Of a stretch of DNA of 64,000 bases, positions 1 to 5,174 are shown one piece after another. This stretch comes from Azospirillum fermentarium. Its GTDB lineage: Bacteria; Pseudomonadota; Alphaproteobacteria; Azospirillales; Azospirillaceae. The stretch lies in assembly GCF_025961205.1 (NCBI RefSeq), contig NZ_JAOQNH010000001.1, forward strand, positions 3,062,001 through 3,126,000. Reading direction: 5' to 3'. The position numbers and the translations under genes are program-made. The notes under the pieces were generated by a model, which saw nothing but the letters and a program-made list of their open reading frames with translations, was not told the origin of the DNA and did no database searches. Each line of letters begins with the position of its first letter. Position 1 is the first letter of the stretch.

Positions 1-426
1 GTCACCGCCGCCGCGGGCCAGCGCGCCGTTGAACCACGCCGCCACGTCGCCGGGCCGCAGCAGGGCCGCCCAGCGGTACAGCGCCGCCGCCGCCGGCCTG
101 TGCCCCCGGTCGAACAGCGCGTCCGCCGCCGCCGACACCGCCACGGCCAGGGCGCCGCCGTCCAGCCGCCGGGCCGCGGCGGCCAGATTGCCGCGGTAGC
201 CGTCCGCCGCCGGATAAAGCGCCGCCGCCTGGGCCATGGCCGTCACCGCCTCGGCGAAGCGGCCCCGCTGGGCCAGCACCACGCCGGACAGGTGCAGCGC
301 ATCGCCGTGGCCGGGGTCGCGGGCCAGCACCGCGGCGTACCCCGCCGCCGCCGCCGCCGCCCGCCCGGCGCGGTGACAGGCCACCGCGTCCGCCAGCAGA
401 CTGTCAATTGTCAATGGGCTGCTCAT
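1..426 (-). CDS. TPR-repeat protein, 3' part cut by window edge
   Basis: Reading leftward from ATG at 424-426, the frame stays open for 142 codons to the window edge, so the C-terminus is missing. The translation begins MSSPLTIDSLLADAVACHRA and is rich in Ala, Leu, Gly and Arg. It shows tetratricopeptide-like helical pairs, for example AGYAAVLARDPGHGDALHLSG and GRFAEAVTAMAQAAALYP, in which spaced Ala, Gly, Leu and Pro follow the TPR pattern. Such N-terminal TPR arrays often precede glycosyltransferase or other catalytic domains, but nothing visible here decides that. The gene diverges from the fix operon and shares its upstream region. No -24/-12 element facing this gene was seen, so NifA control of it is not supported. 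Confidence 0.6.
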   Translation of the reverse strand, partial: MSSPLTIDSLLADAVACHRAGRAAAAAAGYAAVLARDPGHGDALHLSGVVLAQRGRFAEAVTAMAQAAALYPAADGYRGNLAAAARRLDGGALAVAVSAAADALFDRGHRPAAAALYRWAALLRPGDVAAWFNGALARGGGD

Positions 427-453
427 GCCATGAGGTTATACGCACAAAGCGGG

Positions 454-469
454 TGTAGCGAAACCGACA
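454..469 (+). promoter_or_regulatory. Distal NifA upstream activator site (TGT-N10-ACA)
   Basis: The sequence TGTAGCGAAACCGACA matches the NifA enhancer consensus TGT-N10-ACA exactly. Its centre lies 28 bp upstream of the centre of a second site and about 130 bp before the predicted fixA transcription start. Tandem sites are common at strongly NifA-activated promoters. The half-sites are short, so one match alone would be weak; the nearby elements give it weight. Confidence 0.72.
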
Positions 470-481
470 CCTAACCCGCCT

Positions 482-497
482 TGTCGGCTTTGCGACA
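482..497 (+). promoter_or_regulatory. Proximal NifA upstream activator site (TGT-N10-ACA)
   Basis: TGTCGGCTTTGCGACA is an exact TGT-N10-ACA NifA enhancer with extra dyad symmetry (TGTCG...CGACA). Its centre lies about 100 bp upstream of the predicted transcription start near 593, within the usual range for NifA enhancers. Confidence 0.85.
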
Positions 498-536
498 AAG
501 GTCAAACGGTTCTGAAACTGGGGTGAAACCAAGCGG

Positions 537-549
537 AATCAAGGTTTTG
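537..549 (+). promoter_or_regulatory. IHF-binding site between NifA enhancers and promoter
   Basis: AATCAAGGTTTTG matches the IHF core consensus WATCAA-N4-TTR at every defined position. It lies between the activator sites and the -24/-12 element, where IHF normally bends DNA to bring NifA to sigma-54 RNA polymerase. Confidence 0.75.
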
Positions 550-565
550 GGATAAAATCATCCGC

Positions 566-581
566 TGGCACAGCTATTGCA
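566..581 (+). promoter_or_regulatory. Sigma-54 (RpoN) -24/-12 promoter of fixABCX
   Basis: TGGCACAGCTATTGCA is a full match to the TGGCAC-N5-TTGCA consensus, with invariant GG at 567-568 and GC at 579-580 spaced 10 bp apart. Transcription should start about 12-14 bp downstream, near 593, giving an untranslated leader of about 110 bases before fixA. Confidence 0.92.
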
Positions 582-705
582 TTTTTCCAGCCAGCCCGAT
601 CACCCCCGGATGGGCGTACCCGCCGGGGGACCGCACAAATGCCGTACCCACTTTGCCGGTTCAGGCGCGACGACCCGCGCACGTCCACGGCCGCAGGAGA
701 CCGGA

Positions 706-1557
706 ATGCACATCGTCGTCTGTATTAAGCAGGTGCCAGACAGCGCGCAGATCCGCATCCACCCTGTCACCAACACCATCATGCGTCAGGGTGTGCCGGC
801 GATCATCAATCCTTACGACCTCTTCTCGCTGGAAGAGGCTCTGCGCATCAAGGACGCGACGGGTGCCCGCGTCACCGTCCTGACCATGGGTCCGCCCATG
901 GCCGAGGCGGCGCTGCGCAAGGCCCTGTCCTTCGGTGCAGACTCCGCGGTGCTGCTGACCGACCGCAAGTTCGCCGGTTCGGACACGCTGGCCACGTCCT
1001 ACGCGCTGACCTCCGCCATCCGCAAGCTGGAGGAGGAGGAGCCGGTCTCCATCGTGTTCTGCGGCAAGCAGACGGTGGACGGCGACACCGCCCAGGTCGG
1101 CCCCGGCATCTGCACCCGCATGGGCCTGCAGCAGCTGACCTACATCACCAAGATCGAAGACGTCGATCAGAAGACGAACCAGATCACGGTGCAGCGCCGC
1201 TCCGAAGGGGGCGTGCAGGTGCTGAAGACCACGATGCCCTGCATGATCACCATGCTGGAAGGCACCAACACCATCCGCTTCGGCACCATGGACGACATGT
1301 TCCGCGCCGCCCGCACCCCGCTGAAGGTGTGGAGCAAGGACGATTGCGTCGATGACGAGAACAAGGTCGGCCTGAAGGGGTCGCCCACCGTGGTGTCCAA
1401 GGTGTTCGTGCCCAAGCCGCGCGCCGAACGCGCCAAGTTCATCGAGGTGGACGGCGGCGATCCCGTGGCGCTGGCCGCTGCCGCGGTCGATACCGTCTTC
1501 ACGGTCCAGCCCAAGCTGGCCGCCGACCTGCTCGGCGCCGCCGCCGCCGGCCACTGA
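706..1557 (+). CDS. fixA: FixA, electron transfer flavoprotein beta-type subunit
   Basis: This 283-residue ETF beta-family protein begins [20 protein letters not shown], the typical FixA N-terminus, and carries the AMP/FAD-binding fold with [15 protein letters not shown] in the middle. FixA pairs with FixB as the electron-bifurcating flavoprotein that oxidises NADH, sending one electron to quinone through FixC and FixX and one to the low-potential ferredoxin or flavodoxin that feeds nitrogenase. The ATG at 706 was chosen because AGGAGA at 695-700 lies just upstream. An in-frame TTG at 577 falls inside the sigma-54 promoter and cannot be the start. It is the first gene of fixABCX, and fixB follows after 29 bp. 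NifA/RpoN regulation is predicted from the upstream elements. Confidence 0.95.
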
Positions 1558-1586
1558 CAACCGCTAGCCCCGACGAGGCGACGACG

Positions 1587-2666
1587 ATGAGCCAACCGAG
1601 CAAGCCGCAAGGACGCCGTTTCCAGCTTCCCGAACACCTGAAGGTCTATCAGGGTGTGTGGGTGATCATCGAGCAGGAACGCGGACAGGTCCATTCCGTG
1701 TCGTGGGAGCTGGTGGGCGAAGCCCGCAAGCTGGCCGACAAGCTGGGGGTCGAGGTGGCGGCCGTGGTGCTGGGCGCCGAAGGCCCGGACCTGAACCGCA
1801 TCTGCGGCGAGTCCTTCGGCTTCGGTGCCGACGTGGTCTACAAGGTCACGCACCCGTGCCTGAAGGACTACCGCACCGACCCCTATTCCAAGGTGATGAC
1901 CGAGGTGGTCAACACCTACAAGCCGGAAATCGTTCTGCTGGGCGCCACCACGCTGGGCCGCGACCTGGCCGGCGCCATCGCCACCACGCTGAACACCGGC
2001 CTGACCGCCGACTGTACGGAACTCGACATCTACGCCGAGAACCGCAGCCTGGCGGCCACCCGCCCGACCTTCGGCGGCACGCTGCTGTGCACCATCCAGA
2101 CGCTGGCCTACCGCCCGCAGATGGCCACCGTGCGGCCCCGCGTGATGGCCATGCCCGACCGTGACGAAACCCGCATCGGCCGCGTGATCGAGGTCACCCC
2201 GACCCTGGTCGAGGACGAAATCGTCACCAAGGTGCTGAACTTCATCCCCGACAGCGCCCAGAACGAAGCCCAGCTCGCCTTCGCCGACATCATCGTGTCC
2301 GCCGGCAAGGGCCTGGGCAAGCAAGAGAACATGAAGCTGGTGTGGGATCTGGCCAAGGTGCTGGGGGCCGAGGTGGGCGTGTCCCGCCCGCTGGTCCAGG
2401 CCGGCTGGGTCGGCAACGACCGTCAGGTGGGCCAGACCGGCAAGACCGTGCGGCCCAAGCTCTACATCGCCGCCGGCATCTCCGGCGCCATCCAGCATCG
2501 CGTCGGCATGGAAAAGTCCGACCTGATCCTGGCCATCAACACCGATCCCAACGCCACCATCTTCGAATTCGCCCATTACGGCATCGTGGGCGACGCGCTG
2601 AAGATCCTGCCCGCCCTGACCGAAGCCTTCGCCAAGAAGCTGTCGGTCAACCGGCTGGCAAGCTGA
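1587..2666 (+). CDS. fixB: FixB, electron transfer flavoprotein alpha-type subunit
   Basis: This 359-residue ETF alpha-family protein has an N-terminal domain (about residues 20-200) and a C-terminal FAD-binding domain. The latter carries [17 protein letters not shown] and [14 protein letters not shown], the hallmark ETF-alpha flavin-binding segments. The N-terminal [20 protein letters not shown] is typical of FixB rather than housekeeping EtfA. It forms a heterodimer with FixA. GAGG about 10 bases before the ATG serves as ribosome-binding site. It lies 28 bp ahead of fixC in the same operon. Confidence 0.95.
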
Positions 2667-2694
2667 CCACGGGCCCGAAGGAGGACCAAGAGAC

Positions 2695-3996
2695 ATGGTT
2701 GAGAAGTTCGACGCCATCGTCATCGGGGCCGGCCCGTCCGGCAACGCGGCGGCCTACACCTTGGCGAAGGCGGGGCTGAACGTCCTGCAGCTTGAGCGCG
2801 GGGAATATCCCGGCGCCAAGAACGTCCAGGGCGGCATCATGTATTCGTCGGAACTGGAAAAGATCATTCCGGATTTCCGCGAGGACTGCCCCACCGAGCG
2901 CCACATCATCGAACAGCGCATCTGGCTGCTGGGCGACGACAGCTACATCGGCACCAACTACCGGTCCGAAGCGTTCAACAACGACGCCCCCAACCGCTAC
3001 ACCATCATCCGCGCCAACATCGACAAGTGGTGGGGCGAGAAGGTGCGCGGGGCCGGTGCGCTCCAGATCTGCGAAACCACCGTCACCGAGCTGATCCGTG
3101 ACGAGGCGGGCCGCGTGACCGGCGTGCGCACCGACCGCGTGGGCGGCGAGATCCACGCCGACGTGGTGGTGATGGCCGACGGCGTGAACGCGCTGCTGGC
3201 CAAGCGCGCCGGGTTCCAGCAGGAAGCCAAGCCGGAAAACGTGGCGCTGGCGGTCAAGGAGATCATGTTCATCGACCCGCAGCTCATCGAGCAGCGGTTC
3301 GGGATCAAGGACGACGAGGGCGTCGTCATCGAGATCATGGGCAAGGTCACCAAGGGCATGGTGGGCACGGCGTTCCTGTACACCAACAAGGAATCGCTGA
3401 CCATCGGCATCGGCTGCCTGATCTCCGACTTCAAGGCCGGCAACACCGCGCCGTACAAGATGCTGGAGGATCTGAAGAACCACCCGGTCATCAAGCCGCT
3501 GGTGGAGAACGCCGAGATGAAGGAATACGCCGCCCACATGATCCCCGAGGGCGGGTACAAGGCGGTGCCGCAGCTCTACGGCGACGGCTGGATGGTGGTG
3601 GGCGACGCCGCCCACTTCAACAACGCCGCCCACCGCGAAGGCTCCAACCTCGCCATGGCCTCGGGCCGCATGGCGGCGGAGACCATCATCGAGCTGAAGC
3701 GGTCCGGCCGTCCGATGACCACGGCCAATCTGGCCGCCTACAAGGCGAAGCTGGACGGCAGCTTCATCATGAAGGATCTGAAGAAATACCGGAACCTGCC
3801 GGGCGTGATGCACGGCAACAAGCAGTTCTTTACCGACTACCCCGACCTCATCAACGGTGCGGCGCACAATCTCTTCACCGTGGACAGCGTGGACAAGCTG
3901 ACCAAGGAGAAGGAGATCATGAAGTCCTTCGCCAAGAAGCGGTCGGTGATGGGTCTGGTGGGTGATGCGTTCAAGCTGGTGAGGGCGTTCCGATGA
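2695..3996 (+). CDS. fixC: FixC, FAD-dependent electron transfer flavoprotein-quinone oxidoreductase
   Basis: This 433-residue flavoprotein of the geranylgeranyl-reductase/ETF-QO family has the dinucleotide-binding motif GAGPSG at residues 11-16. Later come the FAD-contact segments VVMADGVNALLA and WMVVGDAAHFNNAAHREGSNLAM. It accepts electrons from FixAB and, with the ferredoxin-like FixX, reduces membrane quinone. A strong ribosome-binding site (AAGGAGG) precedes the ATG. The stop overlaps the fixX start by 4 bp (ATGA), implying translational coupling and equal stoichiometry of FixC and FixX. Confidence 0.95.
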   Translation: MVEKFDAIVIGAGPSGNAAAYTLAKAGLNVLQLERGEYPGAKNVQGGIMYSSELEKIIPDFREDCPTERHIIEQRIWLLGDDSYIGTNYRSEAFNNDAPNRYTIIRANIDKWWGEKVRGAGALQICETTVTELIRDEAGRVTGVRTDRVGGEIHADVVVMADGVNALLAKRAGFQQEAKPENVALAVKEIMFIDPQLIEQRFGIKDDEGVVIEIMGKVTKGMVGTAFLYTNKESLTIGIGCLISDFKAGNTAPYKMLEDLKNHPVIKPLVENAEMKEYAAHMIPEGGYKAVPQLYGDGWMVVGDAAHFNNAAHREGSNLAMASGRMAAETIIELKRSGRPMTTANLAAYKAKLDGSFIMKDLKKYRNLPGVMHGNKQFFTDYPDLINGAAHNLFTVDSVDKLTKEKEIMKSFAKKRSVMGLVGDAFKLVRAFR

Positions 3997-4286
3997 GCCA
4001 CATGATCAAAGTCGAAGAGAAGCTGTACCAGAACCGCTACATCGTCGATGAAAGCCGTCCGCACATCGCGATCAAGAACGAGGAGACCTGCAAGACCTGC
4101 GAAACGCAGCCCTGCACGTGGTGCTGCCCCGCGGCCTGCTATTCCAAGAACGAAGCCGGCACCGTGACCCTGGTCACCGACGGCTGCCTGGAATGCGGCA
4201 CCTGCCGGGTGGTGTGCCAGGACAAGGAAAATGTTCTCTGGGACTACCCGCGCGGCGGTTACGGCATCAGTTATAAGTTCGGCTGA
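3993..4286 (+). CDS. fixX: FixX, ferredoxin-like protein
   Basis: This 97-residue iron-sulfur protein has two cysteine clusters: C33, C36, C41, C44, C45 and C49, then C65-x2-C68-x2-C71-x3-C75. The C-terminus ends in the conserved WDYPRGGYGISYKFG of the FixX and ETF-QO ferredoxin domain. It partners FixC in passing electrons to quinone. The ATG overlaps the fixC stop. It is the last gene of the operon, followed by a strong terminator. Confidence 0.95.
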   Translation: MSHMIKVEEKLYQNRYIVDESRPHIAIKNEETCKTCETQPCTWCCPAACYSKNEAGTVTLVTDGCLECGTCRVVCQDKENVLWDYPRGGYGISYKFG

Positions 4287-4342
4287 GGCAGGCCGCCCGA
4301 CCATCCGGCGGCTGGACCCTCTCCTATCCGCCAACTCTGGAG

Positions 4343-4377
4343 ACCCCTCCGTTCTTGTGGACGGAGGGGTTTTTTTG
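4343..4377 (+). terminator. Rho-independent terminator of fixABCX
   Basis: A perfect 10-bp stem (ACCCCTCCGT at 4343-4352 pairs with ACGGAGGGGT at 4361-4370) with an 8-base loop is followed by six further T residues. The T-run is on the plus side only, so it serves fixX rather than the converging bdhA. Confidence 0.9.
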
Positions 4378-4391
4378 TGCCCGCTCCCCCT

Positions 4392-5174
4392 TTACTGCGC
4401 CGTCCAGCCGCCGTCGATCGACAGGGCCGCCCCGGTGATCTGGTCGGCGCTGGGGGAACAGAGGAAGGTGGTGAAGCCGCCGATCTGTTCGGGCGTCACG
4501 AAATCCCCCGACGGCTGCTTGGCGCCCAGCAATTCGGCCCGCGCGGCGTCGGTGGTCAGGCCACGGGCGGCGGCCAGCGCGTCGATCTGCGCCTGCACCA
4601 GCGGCGTCAGCACCCAGCCGGGGCAGATGGCGTTGCAGGTGACGCCGGTGCCGGCGGTCTCCAGCCCCACCACCTTGGTCAGCCCCACCACCCCGTGCTT
4701 GGCCGCCACATAGGCCGCCTTCTGCGCCGAGGCCACCAGCCCGTGGGCCGACGCGATGTTGACGATGCGGCCCCACCCGCGCTCCTTCATCCCCGGCAGG
4801 GCCAGACGGGTGGCGTGGAACACCGCCGACAGGTTCAGCGCGATCACCGCGTCCCAGCGCTCCACGGGGAAATCCTCCACCGGGGCCACATGCTGGATGC
4901 CGGCGTTGTTGACCAGGATGTCGATGCGCCCCCAGGCGGCCAGGGTCTCCCCCACCAGCGCTTCCACCCCGTCGGTGCGGGTCAGGTCGGCGCCGTTGTG
5001 CCGCACCCGCACCCCGTGTTCCCCGGCGATGTCCCGCACCAGCGAGGCGACCGCATCCGGCGCGCCGAAGCCGTTCAGCATCACGTCGGCCCCGGCACCG
5101 GCCAGGGCGCGGGCCGTGCCCAGCCCGATACCGCTGGTGGAGCCGGTGACGATGGCGACCTTACCCTTCAACAT
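4392..5174 (-). CDS. bdhA: 3-hydroxybutyrate dehydrogenase (short-chain dehydrogenase)
   Basis: This 260-residue SDR enzyme interconverts D-3-hydroxybutyrate and acetoacetate with NAD, the entry point to polyhydroxybutyrate monomer use. It shows the cofactor motif TGSTSGIG near residue 11, NNAG, the catalytic serine in NIASAHG, and YVAAKHG (YxxxK). The substrate-loop sequence NAICPGWVLTPLVQAQIDALA is characteristic of the PHB-linked enzyme family. AGGAA lies 7 bases before the ATG. It lies 80 bp downstream of the AsmA gene on the same strand and converges on fixX. Substrate assignment rests on family resemblance. Confidence 0.88.
   Translation of the reverse strand: MLKGKVAIVTGSTSGIGLGTARALAGAGADVMLNGFGAPDAVASLVRDIAGEHGVRVRHNGADLTRTDGVEALVGETLAAWGRIDILVNNAGIQHVAPVEDFPVERWDAVIALNLSAVFHATRLALPGMKERGWGRIVNIASAHGLVASAQKAAYVAAKHGVVGLTKVVGLETAGTGVTCNAICPGWVLTPLVQAQIDALAAARGLTTDAARAELLGAKQPSGDFVTPEQIGGFTTFLCSPSADQITGAALSIDGGWTAQ

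Follow-up and report, generated by a model that had tools for sequence, protein, structure and literature searches.

A predicted NifA-activated, sigma-54-dependent promoter upstream of fixABCX in an Azospirillum-like diazotroph

FixABCX delivers low-potential electrons to nitrogenase. The fixABCX operon considered here lies in a stretch of DNA of 64,000 nucleotides, hereafter the window, which corresponds to C1:3062001-3126000 of a genome of 5.89 Mb in four contigs. The original prediction had proposed that the operon is directly controlled by NifA and linked to diazotrophy, although it found no nif gene in the window. The locus raises the question of whether the promoter of an operon standing apart from the nif genes keeps it linked to nitrogen fixation.

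We confirmed the identity of the operon. Four genes, fixA, fixB, fixC and fixX, are present in this order at 706-4286, and the surroundings are as follows.

1-426, minus strand: divergent TPR-protein gene, 553 aa, extending beyond the window edge
593-705, plus strand: 5′ leader, fold z 0.5, nothing unusual
706-1557, plus strand: fixA, electron transfer flavoprotein beta-like
1587-2666, plus strand: fixB, electron transfer flavoprotein alpha-like
2695-3996, plus strand: fixC, FAD-dependent oxidoreductase, FixC/ETF-QO-like
4002-4286, plus strand: fixX, ferredoxin-like, ATG at 4002 and a second in-frame ATG at 3993

The nearest named relatives of FixA are those of Skermanella and Azospirillum, with 82-84% identity for the best four. 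FixC and FixX were matched in all 21 related loci searched, and a homolog of the TPR protein in just three of them. Divergent control of the TPR gene was ruled out because the minus strand near 426-566 contains no -24/-12 element within two mismatches. Nor was there support for structure or a riboregulator in the leader at 593-720 (z 0.5), and a simple consensus scan of 300-4500 detected no sigma-70 promoter. By eye, we noticed a leader ATG that starts a short frame (639-728) extending beyond the fixA start.

The region 5′ of fixA (454-592) was then examined for promoter elements.

454-469, plus strand: UAS1, putative distal NifA enhancer, exact TGT-N10-ACA, TGTAGCGAAACCGACA
482-497, plus strand: UAS2, putative proximal NifA enhancer, exact TGT-N10-ACA, TGTCGGCTTTGCGACA
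537-549, plus strand: IHF consensus site, exact, AATCAAGGTTTTG
566-581, plus strand: sigma-54 -24/-12 promoter TGGCAC-N5-TTGCA, exact, TGGCACAGCTATTGCA
592 (591-593), plus strand: predicted transcription start, placed by sigma-54 geometry 12 nt past the C of the -12 element

NifA enhancers are expected roughly 80-150 bp upstream of the transcription start, and an IHF site between the enhancer and a NifA-activated sigma-54 promoter is common, not obligatory. The ends of UAS1 and UAS2 are 96 and 68 bp from the -24 element, their centers are 28 bp apart, and the plus-strand IHF site begins at -29 relative to the -24 element. With the geometry of sigma-54 promoters, transcription would start near 592, which would place the enhancer centers near -131 and -103. 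The sequence thus contains the features sought in a NifA promoter: two exact enhancers, an exact TGGCAC-N5-TTGCW and an exact IHF site between them. The two exact enhancers and the exact IHF consensus claimed in the original prediction are present at precisely 454-469, 482-497 and 537-549, and enhancers, IHF site and -24/-12 element do follow one another in the textbook order. Its description of 566-581 as a consensus -24/-12 element holds for TGGCAC-N5-TTGCA, which is exact, but not for the longer consensus TGGCACG-N4-TTGCW quoted in a passage of PMC4999443; position 7 is A, leaving one mismatch to the seven-base form TGGCACG. Among 41 same-genus fixA promoters, G at position 7 was absent only here and in genome G044, and the ending TTGCA was seen only here, the others having TTGCT. 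PMC4999443 and PMC7962754 give forms compatible with the TGT-N10-ACA, -24/-12 and IHF strings used here.

Short motifs of this kind could have matched by chance and be without function. Lone TGT-N10-ACA matches indeed occur at chance frequency in the window (6 against 5.0 expected). The exact IHF match at 537-549 is the only one in the 64 kb, and at least one exact match somewhere in 64 kb was obtained in 19 of 100 shuffles. The element at 566-581 is the only mismatch-free -24/-12 in the 64 kb. We resampled 427-705 20,000 times with a first-order Markov model, without demanding the IHF site. An exact -24/-12 element appeared in three of the resamples, two or more enhancers in 14, and the promoter together with two enhancers in range in none. 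Single motifs are therefore unremarkable, but the combination of promoter and two enhancers is beyond chance. As the combination is also conserved in 40 of the 41 genomes described below, a fortuitous arrangement is extremely improbable.

Conservation of the promoter was examined in a genus set of 45 genomes. The fixA upstream region was readable in 41 of the 42 genomes with nifH, genome G030 being excluded because only a 5′-truncated fixA was found. All 41 regions carried the -24/-12 element (40 exact, one with a single mismatch) and an exact UAS1. An exact UAS2, and hence both enhancers, was present in 40, UAS2 having been lost in G041. Outside the genus, one enhancer and a one-mismatch promoter were found in 5/5 members of g13 and 3/3 of g11. 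In g10, one enhancer was present in 7/7 and a promoter within one mismatch in 3/7, and the enhancer and promoter arrangement was found in 1/1 of g9 and 0/1 of g12. Among 63 distant named fixA loci (L022-L084), 14 combined a promoter of at most one mismatch with an exact enhancer located 40-130 bp upstream of it; the other 49 lacked such an architecture directly before fixA. The promoter is retained whether fixABCX lies about 20 kb from nifH, as in some relatives, or about 140 kb from it, as in this genome and other relatives.

The partners that such a promoter would need were then sought in the same genome. A profile search identified nifA on the minus strand of C1 (674.5 bits; cut-off 528.85). 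Its product has GAFTGA and C-X11-C-X19-C-X4-C, an exact spacing that we take to be a hallmark of alpha-proteobacterial NifA. Part of PMC10590331 describes four conserved redox cysteines in alpha-proteobacterial NifA. Genes for rpoN and for the IHF alpha subunit (ihfA) were also found. Concerning nitrogenase, nifD is at C1:767-2164 and each end of contig C1 holds one piece of nifH (C1:3200121-3200387 and C1:2-556; L093, L094). As the break in C1 falls inside nifH, neither piece alone reaches the family cut-off. A single replicon carries fixA and nifH, 137 kb apart. As nifA and the matches to nifH and nifD all fall outside the window, the absence of nif genes from it held for those tested.

We next considered how FixA and nitrogenase genes are distributed in the family (82 genomes, FixA called at E <= 1e-60). 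FixA was present in 59 genomes. With matches of about 220 bits, which are other members of the superfamily, left out of the count, nifH was present in 65, made up of 61 above the cut-off, three with partial copies (G046, G047 and G050) and the present genome with its split copy. Of the 59 genomes with FixA, 58 had nifH. Seven genomes (G046-G050, G055 and G056) had nifH without FixA at E <= 1e-60, and 16 had neither. Within the genus of 45, FixA was present in 42/42 genomes with nifH versus 0/3 without it; these three, which are drafts of 100-220 contigs, were also without matches to nifD (E <= 1e-30) and nifA (E <= 1e-120). Together with the presence of nifH, nifD and nifA in this genome, the distribution supports the proposed link to diazotrophy.

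G078, which belongs to another genus, was the sole genome with FixA and without nifH. Its best nifH-family match reached 224 bits (cut-off 394), and no nifD match was found. It retains nifA as well as fixABCX, before which stand one enhancer and a promoter with one mismatch (L129, L211, L269). G078 would represent either a loss of nitrogenase or FixABCX put to another use.

A sigma-54 promoter might also be served by an activator other than NifA, such as NtrC or the product of another activator gene of the genome. Many other activator-type stretches were indeed detected in the nifA profile search, all below the cut-off. Moreover, 12 exact -24/-12 elements are present genome-wide, and eight of these are without an exact TGT-N10-ACA within 220 bp upstream, so that they probably serve other activators. 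The remaining four have such sites 45-130 bp upstream: two each before fixA, nifH and a nitrate ABC transport operon, and one before an iscA/hesB-nifU operon. Pairs of non-overlapping enhancers separated by 5-30 bp were counted at eight places in the genome, three of which precede one of the 12 exact promoters. The enhancers before fixA fit the NifA consensus and are of the kind also present in this genome before nifH and hesB-nifU, and fixA, nifA, nifH and nifD are jointly absent from the three genus genomes mentioned above. We therefore regard another activator working these enhancers as very unlikely.

The paired exact TGT-N10-ACA and exact -24/-12 upstream of the nitrate ABC transport operon (C1:2638117-2638266, L104; operon L115) make this operon a possible strain-specific NifA target. 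Its membership in a conserved NifA regulon was not supported, as the full arrangement (promoter with no more than one mismatch and an exact enhancer) was found in none of the 12 relatives examined among the 43 bearing a homolog. In these relatives, G029 had two enhancers and G011 one, both without a promoter within one mismatch, and in G032 and G044 an upstream promoter with one mismatch lacked an enhancer.

The IHF element is the least secure component. The original prediction had called the architecture complete; all elements are present here, but the IHF element is not recognizable in many relatives. In the genus, an IHF match with 0-1 mismatches was found in the linker of 14 of 41 fixA promoters (three exact, including that of this genome) and in none of the other 27, and the best match was at -29 to -31 on the plus strand in 16 of 41. 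At the nifH promoters (L094, L271-L310), the best match was at -29 or -30 on the plus strand in 37 of 41 genomes. A clade of 19 genomes displayed the difference most clearly, with matches of 0-1 mismatches in 0/19 at fixA and 14/19 at nifH and a mean A+T content of the scanned stretches of 46% at fixA and 60% at nifH, a comparison slightly biased toward nifH by the scan lengths (70 bp against 55 bp at fixA). To judge from the genus counts and from this contrast between fixA and nifH, the fixABCX promoters of relatives do not consistently include the IHF element. These results raise the possibility that NifA and sigma-54 drive fixABCX with an incidental or dispensable IHF element, the DNA being bent intrinsically or by HU, as the sites missing at fixA in the 19-genome clade would suggest. 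On the other hand, the site is exact in this strain, and only 7 of 5,000 base shuffles of the 68-bp linker contained an exact match. Its position at -29 on the plus strand also agrees with the 37 nifH promoters and with fixA promoters of other genera, in which the match was at -28 or -29 (2/3 readable in g10 and 3/3 in g11). Taking both sides into account, we consider dispensability of IHF rather unlikely for this strain, and the element at 537-549 is probably real here.

The comparison also revealed variation in enhancer spacing. Between the end of UAS2 and the -24 element of fixA there were 56-58, 67-70 or 78 bp, as measured in the 40 genomes of the genus that carry UAS2; the proximal enhancer of nifH stood at 58, 68-69, 79 or 87 bp in 41 genus genomes, 40 of whose nifH promoters have one mismatch and that of this genome none. 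On a fixAB tree constructed by a quick method, at least three changes of spacing class are needed; with directions inferred from the tree, these would be from 68 to 58 bp, to 56 bp (G023) and to 78 bp (G017). Nine lineage spacing values, which were hand-picked, represent few independent events and include nifH values without a tree of their own, followed a period of 10.5 bp with a resultant of 0.84 (p 0.0002 versus uniform 50-90; p 0.0015 with the period left free). Activation by DNA looping requires the enhancer to be on one face of the helix, and the clustering at about 10.5 bp fits activation of this kind. Off-pattern spacings were observed outside the genus (54, 71 and 73 bp in g10, 66-67 in g11, 90 in g13 and 98 in g9), and among the 14 distant loci with the architecture, nine were at 66-70 bp and the others at 54, 62, 74, 98 and 104 bp. 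The values give a weak suggestion of stepping by helical turns. Tentatively, and with somewhat less than even confidence, we propose that in this genus the enhancer module slides by whole helical turns and that one clade has lost the IHF site of fixA and kept that of nifH. If so, fixA in that clade would be an evolved IHF-independent NifA promoter, and the present strain would represent the IHF-using state. Neither the helical-turn pattern nor the IHF loss at fixA was reported in the titles and abstract openings of the open-access papers searched, which does not prove that they are unpublished.

The own nifH promoter of the strain (C1:3199871-3200010) resembles that of fixA in that its two enhancers and its -24/-12 element are all exact. 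It differs in that the proximal enhancer is 79 bp from the -24 element, about one turn further than at fixA, and that the best IHF match has one mismatch and is at -45, whereas that of fixA is exact and at -29. In two loci named A. brasilense (L020, L021; strains BR 11026 and BR 11650), two enhancers are likewise arranged before an exact -24/-12 element, but their distance from the promoter is shorter by one helical turn (58 vs 68 bp here), the element ends in TTGCT rather than TTGCA, and there is no IHF match within one mismatch, compared with the exact one here.

NifA-dependent fixABCX is not new, as it is already published for A. brasilense, in which operon and regulator are the same as those proposed here. 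A passage of PMC3169532 cites reports of fixABCX regulation by NifA in A. brasilense and Rhizobium, and its reference list gives the title of the A. brasilense report, Sperotto et al. 2004. The same source describes predicted NifA and sigma-54 (sigma-N) sites before fixABCX of Azospirillum amazonense, as here; that operon, however, is located behind nifW in the nif cluster, whereas the present one is 137 kb from nifH. The portion of PMC4999443 concerned with NifA regulons reconstructed in Alphaproteobacteria counts fix operons among the known targets. It also names A. brasilense nifE as the sole experimentally studied NifA target outside Rhizobiales, a statement at odds with the report of 2004 that PMC3169532 cites.

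Considering these results together, we are highly confident in predicting that 454-581 is the NifA-activated, sigma-54-dependent promoter of fixABCX in this Azospirillum-like diazotroph. Conservation of the promoter, the partner genes and the co-occurrence with nif genes support direct NifA control, which for this strain is still a prediction. Weighing against it are the scarcity of good IHF matches at fixA in the genus, the case of G078, the seven family members with nifH but without FixA, the 49 distant loci lacking the architecture and the one-base departure of the -24 element from the genus consensus. Sigma-54 RNA polymerase would wait at 566-581 as a closed complex. In a presumed response to ammonium and oxygen, NifA would be active at low levels of fixed nitrogen and oxygen and bind both enhancers, near -131 and -103. 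A bend in the DNA, probably brought about by IHF at 537-549 in this strain, would bring NifA to the polymerase, and ATP hydrolysis would open the promoter for transcription from about 592, leading to FixABCX.

For this strain alone the result is an ordinary one, a switch of a known kind that is well conserved. The fixA and nifH promoters of the genus provide a natural experiment on enhancer phasing and on the need for IHF at NifA promoters. The results support the view that fixABCX, when located apart from the nif genes, stays tied to nitrogen fixation through its promoter.
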